From the IMG/VR virus record IMGVR_UViG_3300017786_000040, positions 1 to 39,006 of that record: 39,006 bases of DNA; one strand, 5' to 3'. The notes beneath the pieces were generated by a model. That model made no database searches, was not told the origin of the DNA, and saw nothing but the letters and a program-made list of their open reading frames with translations. The position numbers were made by a program, and so were the translations under genes. Numbering within the stretch: position 1 is the first letter of the stretch; each line of letters begins with the position of its first letter. This document shows, in pieces, positions 20,796-34,794 of this stretch. The stretch comes from a virus.

Positions 20796-22049
20796 TTAGT
20801 ACAGCCTGTAACTGGTAGTGCCAAGCGTTTCTGGTTTGGCCAAATTGAACTGCTGTAAACACAAATACCCAAACGCATCAAACGCATGGTCCACTCCCAA
20901 GTTTTTATTGGGCAGTCCAGTGCCTGGCGCGTAAGTCAATGTCCGCAATGACTTGATTAACTGCTTGCAACGTGGATGGATCAGCACTCTCCTCGTGCCA
21001 GTCGCATCTAGTAACCCCGTATTAACAGCTGTGATCTTGTCTCGGATCTTCCATGGCGATCGCGGTGATTGCACCGTAAAACCACTCTTTCGCAAAATTG
21101 CATGGTCAGTAACCCCAACACCACTAGTCTTTCGAGCGCTCCCCGTAGGGTCAGGGCACGCAATTACCCTGCGCTCCACGCCATAGCGACGGGTAACCTC
21201 CTCGGAAAAATCCCAAGTGGTAGCCCCGCCTGTAAGCATGATCTCGTCGAAGACATACAGGTTGGTGCCGTCTTTGACCGCCACAATGCCGCTCATTGGA
21301 TCAACGTTGAAATCCACCCCCAGCAGCAATGGCTGAATTGATATGTCCCTTGAATCCGTCGATATGTTCTCGTCCGAAAAGCTAATAGCGACCAAGCCGC
21401 TTAGGTTCTCGAAGCTAGCCTCAAATTCTTGGCGGAATGTGCGCTGGTCTAGTTGGGCACGGGCTGCCTCAACCTCAGTTTTGCTGACGTTACCCCCGTC
21501 AATCGTTGTAAAACTCCAGCGCTGCCACAATGCCGTTGGATCTTCTTCGACATAACACCACAAGTCATAAAACCAGCTAGCTGTACCGTCAGGTGTCGAA
21601 ATAAATAACGCCCAGCCTTCTTTATCCGCTAAAGCAGGTCGAATTACTTCGAACCAAACCTCAGAATCCATAAAAGCGGCTTCGTCAAGGACTACACCGC
21701 TCAAACTGCGGCCACGTAGCGCCATTGCGTTCTCAGTTCCCTTCAATTCAATGGTGGAACCGTTGATTAGTTCGATGCGAAGGTCAGTTTCGTTTTTAGA
21801 GTGGATCCAAACCTTCGGAACAAGCTTTTTTAAGACGCGCCAAGCGATGTCCTTGGCCATTCGGTACGTCGGAGCGCAGTAAAAAAAGGTCTCGCCTGGA
21901 CGATCGATCGCTCCACGCAGCAATTCAACGCAAGCAAGGTAGGACTTGCCGAAACGGCGACCTGCGACAAGGACTCGGAAACGTTTATCGCAAGAAAATA
22001 CTTCGCCTTGCGCCCAGCGAAGTTCTATTGGTGCGGATTTTTGGCTCAT
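20796..22049 (-). CDS. terL: Terminase large subunit
   Basis: 417 residues from the ATG at 22049 (a GTG at 22058 adds three). ATPase domain: Walker A GRRFGKS at 30-36, Walker B GVVLDEAAF with Asp122-Glu123, then LFISTPDG coupling motif. RNase-H-like nuclease domain: Asp246 (LLGVDFNVDP), Asp300 (ACPDPTGS) and the Asp387/Asp391 pair (VDHAFDAFG). All metal-binding acids appear present. It pumps DNA into the prohead and cuts concatemers, docked on the portal. The divergent gene next door is the likely small subunit. Confidence 0.95.
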   Translation of the reverse strand: MSQKSAPIELRWAQGEVFSCDKRFRVLVAGRRFGKSYLACVELLRGAIDRPGETFFYCAPTYRMAKDIAWRVLKKLVPKVWIHSKNETDLRIELINGSTIELKGTENAMALRGRSLSGVVLDEAAFMDSEVWFEVIRPALADKEGWALFISTPDGTASWFYDLWCYVEEDPTALWQRWSFTTIDGGNVSKTEVEAARAQLDQRTFRQEFEASFENLSGLVAISFSDENISTDSRDISIQPLLLGVDFNVDPMSGIVAVKDGTNLYVFDEIMLTGGATTWDFSEEVTRRYGVERRVIACPDPTGSARKTSGVGVTDHAILRKSGFTVQSPRSPWKIRDKITAVNTGLLDATGTRRVLIHPRCKQLIKSLRTLTYAPGTGLPNKNLGVDHAFDAFGYLCLQQFNLAKPETLGTTSYRLY

Positions 22050-22518
22050 GCCTATCACAATACAGAGGTTTTCAACCCCTACCCCCGTGCAAATAGGGTC
22101 TGTGGGCGGTTATTATCGAAAAAACGGTCGAACATACGTGGACAACGACAAGCGCACCACGCAAGCCAAAGAAGACAGGGTGAGAAGGTTGTATCGGAGG
22201 CAGTTGGATGGGTTGTCGGCTAGAGCGCTGGTTTATGACCATGCGGAAAAGGAGCAGGTTTCGATTGAAACGGCTTGGCGCGATTGGCGAGCAGTAAAGC
22301 TGATTGTTGATGAGGATTGGCAATCTGATCGCGAAAATATGCTGGCAAGACTGCAACACATGCGTACCAAGCTGTTCCATCAAGCTCTGAAGAAAGGTCA
22401 GTTGCAAACTGCTAGCCAGGTTTTGGACTCCATTGGACGGGTCATTGGCGAGTCCACCGAAGTGGTCAATATCCAAGCGCCTGATCTGACCATCAAAATT
22501 GAAGATAAAGCCGGTTAG
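22048..22518 (+). CDS. Probable terminase small subunit (HTH protein)
   Basis: 156 residues from the ATG at 22048; a GTG at 22102 is an alternative nearer the first conserved part (YYRKNGRTYVDNDKR). A helix-turn-helix-like segment (LSARALVYDHAEKEQVSIET, then AWRDWRAVK) is followed by amphipathic helices (ARLQHMRTKLFHQALKKGQL, then QTASQVLDSIGRV). DNA-binding N-terminus plus helical oligomerisation region is the plan of small terminases, and it abuts terL divergently. It shares a layout with the gene at 25,534. Divergent orientation is unusual for TerS/TerL. Confidence 0.6.
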   Translation: MPITIQRFSTPTPVQIGSVGGYYRKNGRTYVDNDKRTTQAKEDRVRRLYRRQLDGLSARALVYDHAEKEQVSIETAWRDWRAVKLIVDEDWQSDRENMLARLQHMRTKLFHQALKKGQLQTASQVLDSIGRVIGESTEVVNIQAPDLTIKIEDKAG

Positions 22519-22987: not shown

Positions 22988-23176
22988 ATGTTCAAACCAT
23001 CATTAGCCGTGCTGCTCGGGATAGCTGCGGGCTTCTCACTGGGAGCACCTATGACTGCTCTATCCAATGAAGCAGTGATCAACTCCTGCCTGTCTAGAAC
23101 TCACACACATCAGATTGTGAGCTTCCGTGGGTTCTTCGGAACCACTGTGGGCTGTGTTGATCGTCGCTACCTCTGA
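22988..23176 (+). CDS. Small exported protein
   Basis: 62 residues. The N-terminus (FKPSLAVLLGIAAGFSLGAP) has a signal-peptide or single membrane-helix look. The remainder holds NSCLSRTHTHQIVSFRGFFG followed by TTVGCVDRRYL, with two Cys that could form a disulphide outside the cytoplasm. I recall similar short proteins in marine Synechococcus, so it may be host-derived. It leads the early-type plus-strand cluster. Function unknown; a cell-envelope role such as superinfection exclusion is only a guess. Confidence 0.6.
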   Translation: MFKPSLAVLLGIAAGFSLGAPMTALSNEAVINSCLSRTHTHQIVSFRGFFGTTVGCVDRRYL

Positions 23177-23182
23177 AGCTCC

Positions 23183-23383
23183 ATGGTCACCCGTTCCCCA
23201 TACGACATGTTCACAGCTTCCAGCGTGGAGACTCCGACCCGTTCGATCCGTCTGACCACTGCCGACATTAACCAGTTGCTAGCAGCACTGGACAATGTGA
23301 CCGAACCAGCAGACGGATGGTCCTCCCATGATTACTTGAGAACCAGACTTTCAGATCTTGCCATCTGGATGTCGATTGAATGA
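23183..23383 (+). CDS. Small hypothetical protein
   Basis: 66 residues, 6 bases after the previous stop. SIRLTTADINQLLAALDNVT then GWSSHDYLRTRLSDLAIWMS suggests two helices. An in-frame ATG at residue 9 is an alternative start. No recognised domain. Same-strand packing with neighbours supports it being a real early gene. Confidence 0.5.
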   Translation: MVTRSPYDMFTASSVETPTRSIRLTTADINQLLAALDNVTEPADGWSSHDYLRTRLSDLAIWMSIE

Positions 23384-23393
23384 TCCTTTCTCT

Positions 23394-23410
23394 CTGGGCT
23401 TCTTGCCCAG
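23394..23410 (+). promoter_or_regulatory. Leader hairpin before the 23,457 gene
   Basis: CTGGGC (23394-23399) and GCCCAG (23405-23410) pair perfectly around TTCTT. It follows the stop of the previous gene and precedes an A/C-rich leader (CCCCAAACGTTCCAAAG) without Shine-Dalgarno. No T-run follows, so it is a weak pause or processing hairpin rather than a clear terminator. Confidence 0.4.
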
Positions 23411-28079: not shown

Positions 28080-29129
28080 TCAAGTTTTAGCAATACCGCG
28101 CTCATCAATTTGCCTTAACTGCAAAATTCGCAACGTCTCGTTGGCATATTTCTGGATGCGTTCAGATTCATGTATCACGGCTTCCAGCGTTTCCTTAATC
28201 CCTGGTCGATTCTCACGTTGCAGCGCTGCCTCAACCATCGCCACGTCAGTTTCAAGCAATGCTCCAGCCTTGACCCTGTGGTTTTTGCTAGCTGCTCGCA
28301 TTGACTTCTCAATCTCCAGCTTGAACTTTGCAAGCTGTTCAGCCATGCGAACGCGACTGCGACTGCTAGCAACTTCTCTCTTGTAGAGCTGCTGTGCCTC
28401 ATCGTTTAGTACTCCATTCCAGCCTTTGAGACGGGGATGATCAGCCCGCTGAATAGGTGCTGAACTTTCCGCACTTGGGACACTCGGTGTTGGGGTGGGT
28501 TCCGGAGCACTGGGGGTCGATGTTGGCTGGCCTTGCTGCACAGCCTCAGGGCGCTCTTTTTTGAACCATTCGCGAACAGTGCTATAGCCACGGCCAAGCT
28601 CTACAGCGATCTCCTTTTTGCCTTTCCCGGCATCGAGCATTGCCCAAGCGCGTGCAACCTCCTCAGGCGTTGCTGGCGGCAGCTTTGTCTTGCCATCTTT
28701 ACCTGTTGTGGCTTTTGGCTTTGAAGTGCCAACCTGGCCATCTGGCCTATCTGGCACCTGATGATCTAGGTCGCGCCTAACAGTTGTTCTGGAAGCGCCC
28801 AAGGAATCAGCAATGCGCTGAGGGCTGTGGCCTTTCTCGCGCAGTTTGCTCACCAACTCTCTCCGCTGTTCAGCGTCCTGCCATGGACGACGAACGCTAT
28901 TAACAATCTGATCGATTTCCTCAGGGTTGTTGGTGTCAACATGATGGACGGGCAGCATAATTCGAGTGCCTTCAGCCTCCAGCTCTTCTCGAACCTTTAG
29001 GCGATGGCGACCGTCGATCACTTCGTTTGTTCCTGACTGCTGGATGATCGGAACAAGAATCCCGTAAGTAGGGATGGTGAGGCGCAGCAAGTCCAGCGTG
29101 GCCTCGTCATAGGCGTAAGTCATTGGCAT
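28080..29129 (-). CDS. ParB-like protein with two HTH motifs
   Basis: 349 residues. The N-terminal ParB/sulfiredoxin-type domain has IDGRHRLKVREEL with Gly40-Arg-His-Arg43, the nucleotide-binding box (CTP in chromosomal ParB). One HTH lies near 103-122 (PQRIADSLGASRTTVRRDL), another near 170-190 (KKEIAVELGRGYSTVREW). A Pro/Ser/Thr linker and a helical C-terminal domain follow. Partitioning, replication control or transcription are possible roles. The first ATG abuts a terminator T-run; ATG 29123 (two codons in) is equally possible. Confidence 0.75.
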   Translation of the reverse strand: MPMTYAYDEATLDLLRLTIPTYGILVPIIQQSGTNEVIDGRHRLKVREELEAEGTRIMLPVHHVDTNNPEEIDQIVNSVRRPWQDAEQRRELVSKLREKGHSPQRIADSLGASRTTVRRDLDHQVPDRPDGQVGTSKPKATTGKDGKTKLPPATPEEVARAWAMLDAGKGKKEIAVELGRGYSTVREWFKKERPEAVQQGQPTSTPSAPEPTPTPSVPSAESSAPIQRADHPRLKGWNGVLNDEAQQLYKREVASSRSRVRMAEQLAKFKLEIEKSMRAASKNHRVKAGALLETDVAMVEAALQRENRPGIKETLEAVIHESERIQKYANETLRILQLRQIDERGIAKT

Positions 29130-29155
29130 AAAAAACCCGCCCCTTTCGGAGCGGG
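29130..29155 (-). terminator. Rho-independent terminator abutting the ParB-like start codon
   Basis: On the minus strand CCCGCTCC pairs with GGGGCGGG (one T-G wobble) around GAAA, followed by six T that run straight into ATG at 29129. It lies between the two ParB-superfamily genes. It may serve as an attenuator, with the stem also hiding the ribosome site of the downstream gene. Confidence 0.85.
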
Positions 29156-29165
29156 GTAACTCAGA

Positions 29166-30152
29166 TCAGCGGAAACACTGTGCCGCTACTGCTGGAGCAA
29201 GTGCCTTAGCGATCTTTCCTGCCTTCGACCCAGCAGCAGGATTATGCAACGCTTGGTTCACTGCAGTTGGCAGCGACTGACGCACAGAATTCATCACACC
29301 TCGGAAACGACCTTCCTTATCCGCTTTGATCCACTTAGCAAAAGTGCCCCCCTCAGGGCGCATCTTCTCTAATTCGTTCCAAAGGCTGTTGCCTGAATCG
29401 GAATACTGAGCAGGAGTAAAAGTGTTCAACTGAAGCTCTGCAGACAACAACTTCACATAAGCAGAAAAAGCAGCCTTGAAATCAACTGTTTTATTTGCCT
29501 GCAAAATTGTGGACTCAATACTCTGGCAGCTAATCAAAGTCACACCACTGCTAGAACCAAGACGTTCGCGAATCTCAGCACGGGAAAAATCGCGAGATCC
29601 AGTGTTCGCTGAAATGATTCGATCTTGAACTTCGTCCTGACTGCGGACGAAAACTACAGAACAGCGGATTTGAAACTTTTGATAAGCATCATAACCAGCC
29701 GCTTTTAACATGATCTGCAAAGCCAACGTGCGGTGACGGCCAGAAGTAATAATCGGACCAACAACAGTGTTTGCCTTGAGGTCTTCGATGTAAGCAACCT
29801 CAATATCTTCCATTAAACGATCAGCACGACCGCCACCCGTTTTACGGATTAACCCGTAACGCCCGAAAAGAATGTCCTCTACCGCCGTTGGATCAACAGC
29901 TTGTGGCGTGACTTCATGTTCTGCGCTCTCCGCAAGCTCACCGAGCGTAAACAAGCGCAGTGCCGCTCCGCCGTCAGGTTTTTGAATCTGAAAATCTTCG
30001 CAGAGGTTTTTGCTGGGCAGAGTGTCGATTTTTCTTTTAAGCTCGCCAGCACCACCTTTGGAACGGTTCATCTGGTCTGCTGCACACTCCTGGATAGAAG
30101 CAAGTGCAGGGAAGTTGGAAGGGTCATAAGCGACCTTGGTTGAAGCATTCAT
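29166..30152 (-). CDS. Second ParB-superfamily protein
   Basis: 328 residues. Residues ~90-200 hold VEDILFGRYGLIRK, then VVGPIITSGRHRTLALQIML with Ser137-Gly-Arg-His-Arg141, the ParB/sulfiredoxin box, and ISANTGSRDFSRAEIRERLG. The C-terminal part (SAYVKLLSAELQLNTFTPAQ) is helical and unrecognised. No HTH was seen, unlike its neighbour, so it is probably a distinct family. DndB-like DGQHR proteins are an alternative relation. It shares the block with the nuclease and probable SSB; partner or regulatory roles are inference. Confidence 0.65.
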   Translation of the reverse strand: MNASTKVAYDPSNFPALASIQECAADQMNRSKGGAGELKRKIDTLPSKNLCEDFQIQKPDGGAALRLFTLGELAESAEHEVTPQAVDPTAVEDILFGRYGLIRKTGGGRADRLMEDIEVAYIEDLKANTVVGPIITSGRHRTLALQIMLKAAGYDAYQKFQIRCSVVFVRSQDEVQDRIISANTGSRDFSRAEIRERLGSSSGVTLISCQSIESTILQANKTVDFKAAFSAYVKLLSAELQLNTFTPAQYSDSGNSLWNELEKMRPEGGTFAKWIKADKEGRFRGVMNSVRQSLPTAVNQALHNPAAGSKAGKIAKALAPAVAAQCFR

Positions 30153-30392: not shown

Positions 30393-31001
30393 TCAAGCAG
30401 GGCTGAACGGATCACCGCCAGTGATCAGCATCTTCAGGTCGAAACCTTTCTTGGTCACTGCGTTCCAAGCGGCGTCCATTGCCTCTTCGTTGTGGTCGTC
30501 CTCGTCGCGGGGGACAATCATCAACTCGTAACGAGTACGGTCAGAAACAATCTTTGTAATCTCAAAATCCCAGCTAAGGATATTTCGAGCGTACTTTTTG
30601 TTGAGACCGTACTTCAAGAATTGGTTGATCACAGACTTGTGTGAAACTTCCAATACTTGAACCTTATTGTCTGTCCAGTTGTAGACAGGCCAGGTCAGGC
30701 AACGGGCAGGCGGGCGCTTCTCAGTCAAAGACTGGTAAGCCATGCCTTGCGTGTAATTTGCGCCAAGCTCGGCGTCAATATCTTCGCTGGTTGGATTTTC
30801 CAAGAAGCGGAAAGGCTTTTTCTTGCCTTCGCCCACGGGATCGCCCCAAACCATCCAATACTCGAACGGATCAGCCTCAAGCAGAGCAAACTCAATGTTT
30901 TGCTTGTGCTCAAGCTGGCCATAGTTGAGGTAGTCGTCCTTTGAAGAACCACCACTTTCCTGTTGCTCGTACTCTTTGATGAGATCAGATGAAATTTTCA
31001 T
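30393..31001 (-). CDS. Probable single-stranded-DNA-binding protein
   Basis: 202 residues from the ATG at 31001, preceded by AGGTAAAG; an ATG at 31034 adds eleven. The core RCLTWPVYNWTDNKVQVLEV then SHKSVINQFLKY, DFEITKIVSDRTRYELMIVP has the OB-fold-like plan of phage gp32/gp2.5-type SSBs (aromatic strands, then a D-I-x-x-K segment and a Tyr-x-V/M strand). The acidic stretch DEDDHNEEAMDAAW lies late, and the end is GGDPFSPA rather than a classic DDDIPF tail. Driven by a consensus promoter, divergent from the primase-helicase. Assignment is by pattern and place. Confidence 0.55.
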   Translation of the reverse strand: MKISSDLIKEYEQQESGGSSKDDYLNYGQLEHKQNIEFALLEADPFEYWMVWGDPVGEGKKKPFRFLENPTSEDIDAELGANYTQGMAYQSLTEKRPPARCLTWPVYNWTDNKVQVLEVSHKSVINQFLKYGLNKKYARNILSWDFEITKIVSDRTRYELMIVPRDEDDHNEEAMDAAWNAVTKKGFDLKMLITGGDPFSPA

Positions 31002-31045
31002 CTTTACCTGTGTAGAAATGCACGTCACTGTCATGACGCTTCTGA

Positions 31046-31151: not shown

Positions 31152-33383
31152 ATGAAACTGACAGACTTTGTCAACGCGCTCCCAAAAGGTCTGGTATATG
31201 CCCCGATCTACCGCAAGGGCGCTCCAATGGAGTCAGGCAAGGCTGCCACTGGGAAAAACCCTCTAGAGGCCAGCTTTGATCACAAGCTTGACCCCGCTGA
31301 CGTAGCCCTGGCGATCCAGAAAAACCCTGACCTTCAAGCGGTTGGCGTTTTCACTGGCATCCGTGGCAATGGCATCGTCATCCTTGATGTTGACGCTGGC
31401 TTGAACAAGCTTGAAGATAAATATGGGCCTACACTTATTGGCCCCAAAATTACATCAACTAGGCACAATGCTGCGAAGTTTTTGTTTACCGTTCCAAAAG
31501 AACTTTGGAATCAGGTAGAAGGTCGTGGCCTGGGTGATTCTGATTACGAAATCCTCTGGAACTCAAAGCGCCAAGGTGTAATTTTTGGTGCCTACCCTGG
31601 CGGTAAGCATTCAAAGCCAGGTCAATACACCTTTGAAGGCAATCTCAACGACATCCCAACTGCGCCTGACTGGTTGTTGGCTGAGATGAAGAAGCCCCCA
31701 AAGACCCTCATCACAAGGGATCCAGACTTCTCAGACCGTACTGAAGAGGAGATCTTCGAGATCATCAAAGACTGCCTCAGTGTCATTCCTAACAAAGGCA
31801 AAGGGTCTCGCGATCACTGGGTCAAGATCGGCATGGCCATCAACTCTGCACTGCCTACAGAAGCAGGCATGATGCTTTGGGTTTCCTGGTCCTCTGATGA
31901 TCCTGATTACGCCTCAGAGTGGGAAGACAGCAATCCCTGCGAAGAGACTTGGTACTCCTTCAAGAGCGGTGGCGTTGGACTCGGCACTCTCATCTGGTTG
32001 GCTGACCGGGAAGATCCAGAGAGGCATAGGTTTTCAGAAACCGTGGCCCAAATCGTAAAAGACGCAGAAGACAAGAAAGTGCAGGACTTCCGCCAGCACA
32101 CCCTTGACTTCAATGAGGTCATCAAACGCGCCAAGAAAATTCTTGATCTCGAAAACCCCGCTGAGGTCAACTACAAACTAAATAGCCTCGCCTTGCAAGC
32201 TGGCTACAGGGATCAGACGGCGCTCGAAAAGCTCATCGTTGATCAAATAGCCTTTGAAAAGAAAGTCGATACCGTCACTGTCGAAGAGCTGATGCAGATA
32301 GAAACCAAGCGCGAATACCTTATCCCTGACGTTCTTCCACACCCCTCCGTCATCCTCATTTACGGCGCTGGTGGTGACGGTAAATCCACAGCAGCATGGG
32401 CAATCGCTAAGCACATCGCCTCTGGTAAGCCTTTCCGCGTTCGCGGTGCTGACGTTCCAGTAAGCCAAGGCCCTGTCCTTCTGCTTAATGGTGACCAGCC
32501 CCTGGTTCAACTGAAGGAACAGCTCATCGAAGCTGACTTCCCTATCACAGACAAAACCTTCATCAGGACTGACTGGCAGCTTCAACGCTATGCCCAGTTC
32601 ATCCGCCTGATGGAAAGCATCAAGCCCAGCCTGGTCGTCATCGACTCCCTGATTGGCTGTTCTGGTGGACGGGGCTTTGACGAGAACAAGTCTGATTTCG
32701 CCACGCCCCTTTACTGGCTCACCAAAAACAATGGCGAGCTGTTCCCTGCCACCACAATCCTGATCATTCACCACGCCAACAAGAACGGCGGATTCCGTGG
32801 CACCTCAGCCATCCGTGATGCTGTAGACGAAACGTGGTCTCTCAAGCGCACAGACCCCCAAGACAAGGGTCCAAAGCTTCAGAGCCATGAACGCCTCATC
32901 GAAATCGAGAAAAGCCGTTCTGGACGCTCTGGGACGCATCTGGTGCTTGGCCAGAACGAAGACCTCGATTTCTACATTGCCGACTTCACGCCCGAGGTCG
33001 ATCCAGACGACACCACTCCCTCCTCAGTCCTTGGCCGTGTCCTCAGCAGGCTGCGGATTGCCTATCCAGAAACACGCACCAAAAACGATCTGGTCTGTGA
33101 CTCTCTTGTGTCAGGCACTGCTTCCGCAATCAAGAAAGCGCTCCAACGCCTGGAAGATCGGAACCTGATTGTCTCGGACGTCCCAGAAGGTTCTCGTTCC
33201 AAACATTATCTTGCTGTTCTCGCGTGTGGAGAGGGTAAGAGGGCTGTCCCCTTTGGTACGAATACCAGTGGTAGTGCGGCTTTTGGTACGGGACAAGAGG
33301 TGGGGGACATGCCCCTCTGTCCCCCTTTGATGGATGGAGCGGTTGAGATTGAACTCACCGACGAAGAACGGGGACAACTCTAA
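31152..33383 (+). CDS. Primase-helicase: prim-pol, PriCT and RepA-like ATPase
   Basis: 743 residues. N-terminal prim-pol domain: GIVILDVDAG with Asp79/Asp81 and TSTRHNAAKF with His105. Residues ~205-285 (DHWVKIGMAI, GGVGLGTLIWLA) match a PriCT-2-type primase C-terminal domain. RepA/RadA-like P-loop: Walker A GAGGDGKST (405-413), Walker B SLVVIDS with Asp498, and IIHHANK sensor near 540 followed by RGTSAIRDAVDETWSL. A winged-helix-like part near 630-690 comes last. It probably primes and unwinds phage DNA and would recruit host polymerase, since no polymerase gene is visible. The 3' end carries the heptamer repeat array. Confidence 0.9.
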   Translation: MKLTDFVNALPKGLVYAPIYRKGAPMESGKAATGKNPLEASFDHKLDPADVALAIQKNPDLQAVGVFTGIRGNGIVILDVDAGLNKLEDKYGPTLIGPKITSTRHNAAKFLFTVPKELWNQVEGRGLGDSDYEILWNSKRQGVIFGAYPGGKHSKPGQYTFEGNLNDIPTAPDWLLAEMKKPPKTLITRDPDFSDRTEEEIFEIIKDCLSVIPNKGKGSRDHWVKIGMAINSALPTEAGMMLWVSWSSDDPDYASEWEDSNPCEETWYSFKSGGVGLGTLIWLADREDPERHRFSETVAQIVKDAEDKKVQDFRQHTLDFNEVIKRAKKILDLENPAEVNYKLNSLALQAGYRDQTALEKLIVDQIAFEKKVDTVTVEELMQIETKREYLIPDVLPHPSVILIYGAGGDGKSTAAWAIAKHIASGKPFRVRGADVPVSQGPVLLLNGDQPLVQLKEQLIEADFPITDKTFIRTDWQLQRYAQFIRLMESIKPSLVVIDSLIGCSGGRGFDENKSDFATPLYWLTKNNGELFPATTILIIHHANKNGGFRGTSAIRDAVDETWSLKRTDPQDKGPKLQSHERLIEIEKSRSGRSGTHLVLGQNEDLDFYIADFTPEVDPDDTTPSSVLGRVLSRLRIAYPETRTKNDLVCDSLVSGTASAIKKALQRLEDRNLIVSDVPEGSRSKHYLAVLACGEGKRAVPFGTNTSGSAAFGTGQEVGDMPLCPPLMDGAVEIELTDEERGQL

Positions 33384-33448
33384 TTGTCCCTACCCCCTGT
33401 CCCCAAGCACATCCTTTGGTACGCCTAAGGTTTGAGCGATTGGGGACA
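33245..33448. repeat. Inverted heptamer array (GGGGACA / TGTCCCC)
   Basis: Exact copies: TGTCCCC at 33245, GGGGACA at 33303, TGTCCCC at 33318, GGGGACA at 33371, TGTCCCC at 33399, GGGGACA at 33442; near copies at 33289 and 33386. The pairs 33303/33318 and 33371/33386 are inverted with the same 8-base spacer. TTTGGTACG also occurs three times (33252, 33282, 33416). The array covers the last ~140 bases of the primase-helicase gene and ~65 bases after it. It resembles origin iterons or multiple operators. Confidence 0.85.
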
Positions 33449-33623
33449 GTTTTTACATCTATACGCGCGAGGCATGAACTGGACTGAAATCCTTAGGAAA
33501 GGCGGCGTTCCAGATGCGCCGGGCTACCAAGAGACAGTGGCCAGCTTTGTGGAGCGCCCATACAAAAAGCCCACCCGCAAGGCCAAGCCTCCCAGGAGCA
33601 AGGCCAAGAAAAAAGCTAAATGA
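33432..33623 (+). CDS. Small protein with Lys-rich tail
   Basis: 63 residues from a TTG at 33432; an ATG at 33474 gives 49. WGQFLHLYARGMNWTEILRK may be helical; the end is strongly basic (KKPTRKAKPPRSKAKKKAK). It starts inside the heptamer array just after the primase-helicase gene. The basic tail suggests DNA contact. Start choice is uncertain because neither candidate has a well-placed Shine-Dalgarno. Confidence 0.45.
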   Translation: MSDWGQFLHLYARGMNWTEILRKGGVPDAPGYQETVASFVERPYKKPTRKAKPPRSKAKKKAK

Positions 33624-33669
33624 CCTGCTACACTTTGCTCCGTCTACATTGCTACTCGATCAATTGAAC

Positions 33670-33954
33670 ATGAGAAGAGTCTCAACATTCCTGCCAGAAG
33701 ACCAAGTAAAACGCTTAGATTTTGAAGCTAAGCAAGCTGGTAAACAGCGTTCAGAGTTGATTCGCGATCGTCTGCTTGAAAAGCAAGGCAACTTTCCCGA
33801 TCCAAGCGCAATTACTACTAATGATTTTCACCAAACTGTTGCAAAAATTCGTCGCCGCCATCACTCTAGCCTTGATCGGGTACAGACTGAAGTCCTTGTC
33901 GCAGCAGTCCTTGTCGAGTTCCAAAAGCTTACCCAACGTGACCAAAAGAACTAA
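33670..33954 (+). CDS. CopG/Arc-type ribbon-helix-helix protein
   Basis: 94 residues from the ATG at 33670. MRRVSTFLPEDQVKRLDFEA then KQRSELIRDRLLEKQ is a clear strand-helix-helix domain at the N-terminus. The rest (VAKIRRRHHSSLDRVQTEVL) is helical and basic. Likely a dimeric DNA-binding regulator; the inverted heptamer pairs just upstream are possible targets (inference). The end overlaps the next gene by 17 bases. Confidence 0.65.
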   Translation: MRRVSTFLPEDQVKRLDFEAKQAGKQRSELIRDRLLEKQGNFPDPSAITTNDFHQTVAKIRRRHHSSLDRVQTEVLVAAVLVEFQKLTQRDQKN

Positions 33955-34530: not shown

Positions 34531-34794
34531 ATGAGTGGCACGCACGGTTATCGCGTTTACGTTCAAGTCTTACTCGAACCGTTTCGTGGCGAACTTTTCA
34601 GTAGAGAGGCCAAAGAAGCAGGCGTAAAGCCCTCCGCTTGGATGCGCCAAATAATCTACAACTACCTTCAGGAGAAGTATCCCGATGAATACCCTGAAGC
34701 AGAAATCAAAGACGCTGCCAAATGGCAGGAAGCTGTCAAAGCTCGCGTCGAAGGCCGAGCTTTACAAAAAAGACTGAGACCCAAAGCCGACTAA
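34531..34794 (+). CDS. Ribbon-helix-helix-like protein
   Basis: 87 residues. YRVYVQVLLEPFRGELFSRE then GVKPSAWMRQIIYNYLQEKY has the strand, helix, Ser-capped helix plan of Arc/MetJ-type domains. The C-terminus is charged and basic (RALQKRLRPKAD). Last plus-strand gene before the convergent minus-strand set; the two stops overlap by four bases. DNA-binding regulator is likely, target unknown. Confidence 0.55.
   Translation: MSGTHGYRVYVQVLLEPFRGELFSREAKEAGVKPSAWMRQIIYNYLQEKYPDEYPEAEIKDAAKWQEAVKARVEGRALQKRLRPKAD

Follow-up and report, generated by a model that had tools for sequence, protein, structure and literature searches.

A mirrored array of eight GGGACA boxes at the 3'-end of a primase-helicase gene as the probable replication origin of a marine siphophage

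We propose that a marine siphophage, probably one of cyanobacteria, has its replication origin in an array of eight short boxes at the 3'-end of a primase-helicase gene, and that the array is bound by the C-terminal winged helix of the phage's own primase-polymerase-helicase. We regard this reading as very likely. The stretch of DNA analyzed (the window) comprises 39,006 bases and is a virus record from IMG/VR. It carries siphovirus-type genes for a terminase, portal, major head, tape measure and lambda-J-like tail fibre. Cyanophage S-2L is among the closest named relatives (terminase 44%, portal 38%), and the portal also matches other cyanophages.

Results

The eight GGGACA boxes lie at positions 33245-33448 and six of the eight are exact GGGGACA. 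The initial annotation of the sequence had reported six exact GGGGACA/TGTCCCC copies and two near copies within about 200 bases, and we located all of them. Box 1 (33245..33251, - strand), box 2 (the near copy CGGGACA; 33289..33295, + strand), box 3 (33303..33309, + strand) and box 4 (33318..33324, - strand) make up the left quartet, which is separated by a linker (33325..33369) from the right quartet of box 5 (33370..33376, + strand), box 6 (the near copy AGGGACA, TGTCCCT on the + strand; 33385..33391, - strand), box 7 (33398..33404, - strand) and box 8 (33442..33448, + strand). The order of the boxes (< > > < linker > < < >) is that of a quartet and its mirror image. The array begins within the primase gene and ends 65 nt past the stop codon of the gene (33383). 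Two of the pairs, 3/4 and 5/6, had been described as sharing an identical 8-base spacer; the spacers are equal in length (8 nt) but differ in sequence, and one arm of the 5/6 pair is a near copy. The array is flanked by an element on each side, CCCTCTCCACACGCGAG on the - strand at 33219..33235 and its inverted match CATCTATACGCGCGAGG on the + strand at 33456..33472, and the outer flanks matched each other in inverted orientation above shuffles in 40 of 40 loci.

We counted the heptamer across the window and found nine copies against 3.14 expected. Three copies lie outside the array, all of them single, and the density elsewhere in the window is at chance level, a count that had been suggested as a check on the array. 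The largest 204-nt cluster in 300 dinucleotide shuffles held two heptamers (six observed) or three hexamers (eight observed). When any heptamer was allowed in 15 shuffles, the largest clusters held at most five copies and were made of poly-A. Terminator-like matches numbered three against 0.8 expected, and one of these is the box 5/6 inverted pair itself. GC skew, which had also been put forward as possible evidence for an origin, did not provide any, as there is no switch at the array. The linker has no AT-rich unwinding element, with an AT content near 0.5 for linkers of the window's box class.

A protein search with the 743-aa gene product yielded 80 relative loci that were kept, and about eight boxes were present in matching positions and orientation in most of those having enough sequence. 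Later scans covered 183 loci with a readable gene end. At least seven boxes were recovered in 168 of the 177 relatives having at least 330 nt past the stop codon, always at the 3'-end of the gene (eight boxes in 74 relatives, nine or more in 81, seven in 13, six in 7 and three in 2). Measured between the GGACA cores of full quartets in 60 non-redundant loci, the long gaps are nearly constant at about 41 nt, ranging over 38-42 nt, and the short gaps are almost always 8-9 nt; the linker, measured in the same way, is variable (17-73 nt). Conservation of the box spacing in relatives, on which the significance of the array had been made to depend, is therefore borne out. The array as a whole shifts relative to the stop codon, between about 280 nt upstream of it and a mostly downstream position, while the gaps stay the same. 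The initial annotation had argued that codon use alone is insufficient, since the array runs past the stop codon; we agree that codon use does not explain the array, because in deeper relatives it slides around the stop codon with unchanged spacing.

We also scanned DNA with the geometry of one quartet and the five-base core only, without protein information, and recovered at least 120 stretches. Among the matches listed, 98 of the 106 new loci hold a stretch of the same primase gene, and six of the eight exceptions among these listed matches are arrays cut by the record end, within about 200 nt. The pattern match in G012/L147 was rejected, being a TGTCC-rich repeat region instead of an array. 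One quartet-geometry match in L133 (G013; 675-739) is unexplained, with no primase gene detected nearby, and may be either chance or a diverged relative. The isolates S-CBS4 and ctyzp037 lack a clear array after the related gene. Many of the CTGGACA-class arrays (L036, L042, L048 and others) have an extra copy of CCTGGACAT soon after box 8, at +71 past the stop codon. S-2L (L207, MW334946.1) has eight GGCAC/GTGCC copies, in both orientations, in the 360-nt gap after its PrimPol gene (23038-23400), and the density of this 5-mer, with a genome mean of 1.5 per 400 nt, peaks in that gap. The 5-mer was picked post hoc, and the gap is a candidate origin to be taken as a lead only. A literature search, with subscription papers mostly outside its coverage, returned no account of the array described here.

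The gene at 31152..33383 (+ strand) encodes a protein with Prim-Pol, PriCT-2 and RepA-like AAA_25 domains (Pfam PF09250, PF08707 and PF13481) and a C-terminal winged helix, and we propose this primase-helicase as the initiator. AAA_25 was the only Pfam match in the helicase region, which did not match DUF927 (found in SaPI Rep) or D5/Primase_Cterm. The winged-helix domain (residues 626-688; 33027..33215, + strand) was recognized in an AlphaFold2 model of the C-terminal fragment and with Foldseek. The fragment model (moderate confidence, mean pLDDT 75) has helices at residues 626-637, 644-648 and 657-669 and a two-strand wing; residue 661 falls within the recognition helix. A model of the whole protein was of too low quality to be useful (pLDDT 65). 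Foldseek assigned the winged helix to the MarR family, with the best matches at rmsd 1.7-1.9 over 64-65 residues (prob 1.00). A PDB sequence search gave no match for the whole protein and weak PadR/MarR matches for the C-terminal part. On the strength of the sequence and the model, we propose the winged helix as the reader of the boxes.

The boxes of one phage change jointly and are GGGGACA (GG), TGGGACA (TG; also TAGGACA, TA), CTGGACA (CT) or GTGGACA (GT). The box class is tracked by residue 661, which is K in the window (codon at 33132..33134, + strand). In a 77-protein set, residue 661 is K in 31 of 31 proteins with GG boxes, R in 25 of 25 with TG and H or Q in 21 of 21 with CT. The larger set of 181 loci contains 48 with K and GG, 92 with R and TG or TA, and 36 with H or Q and CT. 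Three loci are exceptions, L158 (K with TG) and two GT phages with R, L116 and L099; the remaining members of the GT group are L113 (G at 661) and L114 (T at 661). Judging from these three loci and from the occurrence of R with both TG and TA, position 661 is not fully decisive for the box class. Residue 661 ranked first among 727 columns in normalised association with the box class; columns 725 and 727, both of which are encoded by the array itself, were above it in raw mutual information.

Relatedness alone could give the pattern of boxes and residue 661, so we built a tree from residues 1-600 only, leaving out the winged helix. The box class requires seven changes on this tree. The main GG clade does not include L171, in which GG arises separately, and it contains a nested TG group with R at 661 (L059, L061, L063 and L066). 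The sister proteins of L171 and L179 share 85.6% identity across 606 residues but differ in both traits, with K and GG boxes in the former and R and TG boxes in the latter.

The three further repeat copies noticed at the outset are indeed present, and are copies of TTTGGTACG on the + strand, two in the left gap (33252..33260 and 33282..33290) and one in the right gap (33415..33423). The linker contains TGGAGCG, also on the + strand (33335..33341). This second motif, TGG(A/T)(A/G)CG, is located in the long gaps and the linker and on one strand only in the window array. With the remainder of the loci as the reference, the + strand of the pooled arrays has 116 copies where 5.9 are expected, and the - strand has 15 where 23.6 are expected. 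Left of the array the motif is on the bottom strand instead, even within the + strand primase gene. Compared to synonymous codon shuffles of the primase gene in 53 genes, the bottom strand has 157 copies against 25.9 expected, a significance that is overstated as the genes are related, and the coding strand has 10 against 17.5. In 200-nt bins, TGGNNCG reaches 15.1 per kb on the bottom strand immediately to the left of the array; within the array it switches to the top strand, at 13.8 per kb. To the right, copies are split about evenly between the strands over 5 kb, beyond which the bottom strand again predominates; this bias far to the right is not predicted by a simple bidirectional fork model.

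The second motif resembles the start site of the NrS-1 primase-polymerase, which initiates at TTTGGTTA and also uses GTG-type sites (PMC8718748). The window motif TTTGGTACG shares TTTGGT with TTTGGTTA, a likeness of sequence only between two prim-pol systems, and we suggest that the second motif might be a primase start signal. The template sequence that triggers priming by the PrimPol of the related phage S-2L was stated as unknown (PMC8065100). It is conceivable, although we lean against it at present, that the two motifs are a two-part code for one enzyme: a mirrored pad of eight boxes would be read through residue 661, and oriented TGGNNCG starts would be read by the prim-pol, with the start sites on the top strand within the origin and, genome-wide, mostly on the bottom one.

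A 213-aa protein (30393..31034, - strand), divergent from the primase gene and kept beside it in relatives, had no family match; our guess is that it is an ssDNA-binding protein. A 349-aa ParB-like protein (28080-29129) is adjoined by a 328-aa protein (region 28080-30152) that had no family match, appears ParB-like by eye and has L080 (39%) as its sole match in the relatives read. The ParB-like protein itself was not found in the relatives' loci read, which are flanking sequence and not always whole genomes. The two genes (28080-30152) may be a recent insert. The RHH gene is about 1.4 kb past the primase stop codon, versus 250 nt, in L005, L009, L011, L015, L016, L022, L042, L055 and L063, pointing to an extra gene of about 1.2 kb inserted just right of the array in these nine loci. 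Nearly all relatives with sufficient flanking sequence, even those in which the RHH gene was not detected, retain p87 (34531-34794), whose product looks by sequence like a second small RHH-type protein.

We evaluated other functions that the array might serve. The best of these, which we nevertheless consider improbable, is an autoregulatory operator with no origin role, through which the winged helix of the prim-pol would regulate transcription of its own operon or of adjacent downstream genes. The boxes extend from the end of the primase gene into the beginning of the genes that follow, the winged helix is MarR-like, and an initiator can serve both functions. However, eight boxes in two mirrored quartets over about 200 nt greatly exceed the need of an operator, and the array persists when the downstream gene set changes. 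Furthermore, no sigma-70-like promoter was found in 33100-33750, and the primase promoter would sit 2 kb upstream.

Less likely still, the inverted boxes could act as hairpins, folding as single-strand initiation signals like ssiA/ssiB of RSF1010, with the spacing representing loops. Boxes 3/4 and 5/6 can pair as stems of 6-7 pairs with loops of 8-9 nt, the DNA folds with z of about -4.4 on both strands, and RepB' is known to read a hairpin and its flank (PMC4434180). The low folding energy is explained by the presence of inverted boxes, and the 8-9 nt spacing recurs in the tandem boxes 2/3 and 6/7, which are unable to pair in this way. An Rfam scan of the array region matched no family.

The initial annotation had offered an operator for the RHH gene at 33670 as an alternative to an origin. 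This possibility is close to refuted, as are a centromere bound by an RHH protein (33670 or p87 at 34531) and a partition site for the ParB-like protein (28080-29129). Such proteins often bind short repeated sites and their genes are nearby. The RHH protein is not the reader, because it is identical in L005 (GGGGACA) and L043 (CTGGACA) and its homologue was undetected beside most of the deep TGGGACA arrays, in flanking sequence that did not always extend to whole genomes. The p87 protein, one residue apart between L027 (GG) and L044 (CT), was also rejected, and these comparisons of natural sequences exclude the encoded RHH proteins as the box reader. The ParB-like protein was rejected as reader of a parS site, its homologue being undetected in the relatives' loci read. 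A packaging (cos/pac) or integration site is scarcely credible even though such sites also carry repeated binding boxes, since the terminase gene (20796-22058) is 11 kb away, no integrase was found among the ORFs checked in the window, and the box sequence follows the winged helix of the primase.

Discussion

The suggestion that the repeats are an iteron origin is well supported by the conserved geometry, by joint changes of the boxes in step with the primase's recognition helix, and by known origins located directly 3' of such genes. Rep helicases of SaPI and SCCmec bind iterons just 3' of their own genes via the C-terminal domain; binding as two hexamers was proposed, and SaPI5 Rep is a primase-helicase fusion (PMC7581432). 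The array resembles those of SaPI Rep and SCCmec Cch2 in having short repeats at or after the end of the initiator gene, here overlapping its 3'-end. Unlike the SaPI/SCC proteins, which have DUF927 or D5-type helicases, the phage protein has AAA_25 with Prim-Pol and PriCT-2 fused to it, and the eight boxes, some of them within the gene, are arranged with fixed gaps as two mirrored quartets.

The pRN1 origin, a stem-loop, is directly 3' of the prim-pol gene, and its authors proposed binding by the winged helix, with the motifs then still to be identified (PMC4234260). Like the phage protein, ORF904 of pRN1 unites prim-pol, helicase and a C-terminal winged helix in a single polypeptide, and the origin (a candidate one in the phage) follows the gene on its 3' side. 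The two differ in that pRN1 has a 100-nt stem-loop, no iterons and an SF3 helicase, whereas the phage has conserved boxes, fixed gaps and AAA_25. RSF1010 provides an AEP primase, a RepA-like hexameric helicase, iterons and strand-specific initiation sites, divided among three proteins (RepA, RepB' and RepC) instead of one (PMC4234260, PMC4434180). In the description given in PMC4234260, the alpha protein of phage P4 is a primase-helicase whose winged helix binds origin repeats. The phage protein is similar in being a primase-helicase with a winged helix and repeats at the putative origin. The P4 primase is of the TOPRIM type, and the P4 repeats differ from the array in sequence and layout. By analogy, the array would work like the SaPI/SCC and pRN1 origins, differing as a family member in helicase type and layout.

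From these features we infer a course of initiation, including its direction. The winged helix of the primase-polymerase-helicase would bind the eight GGGGACA boxes at the end of its own gene, a step to which the present analysis lends indirect support, and each quartet would probably nucleate one helicase ring. The two rings, facing each other across the linker, would open the linker region. The prim-pol would then begin DNA synthesis at the exposed, oriented TTTGG(T/A)(A/G)CG-type sites, which lie on one strand in the gaps.

With the proposed origin, an uncultured marine phage group gains a predicted origin, its putative reader and a single candidate specificity residue. The many natural variants of box and residue lend themselves to studies of how initiators and their origins coevolve. 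The polar second motif may signal primase starts throughout the genome. If the two-part code were true, one protein would mark both the start of replication and each later primer site.
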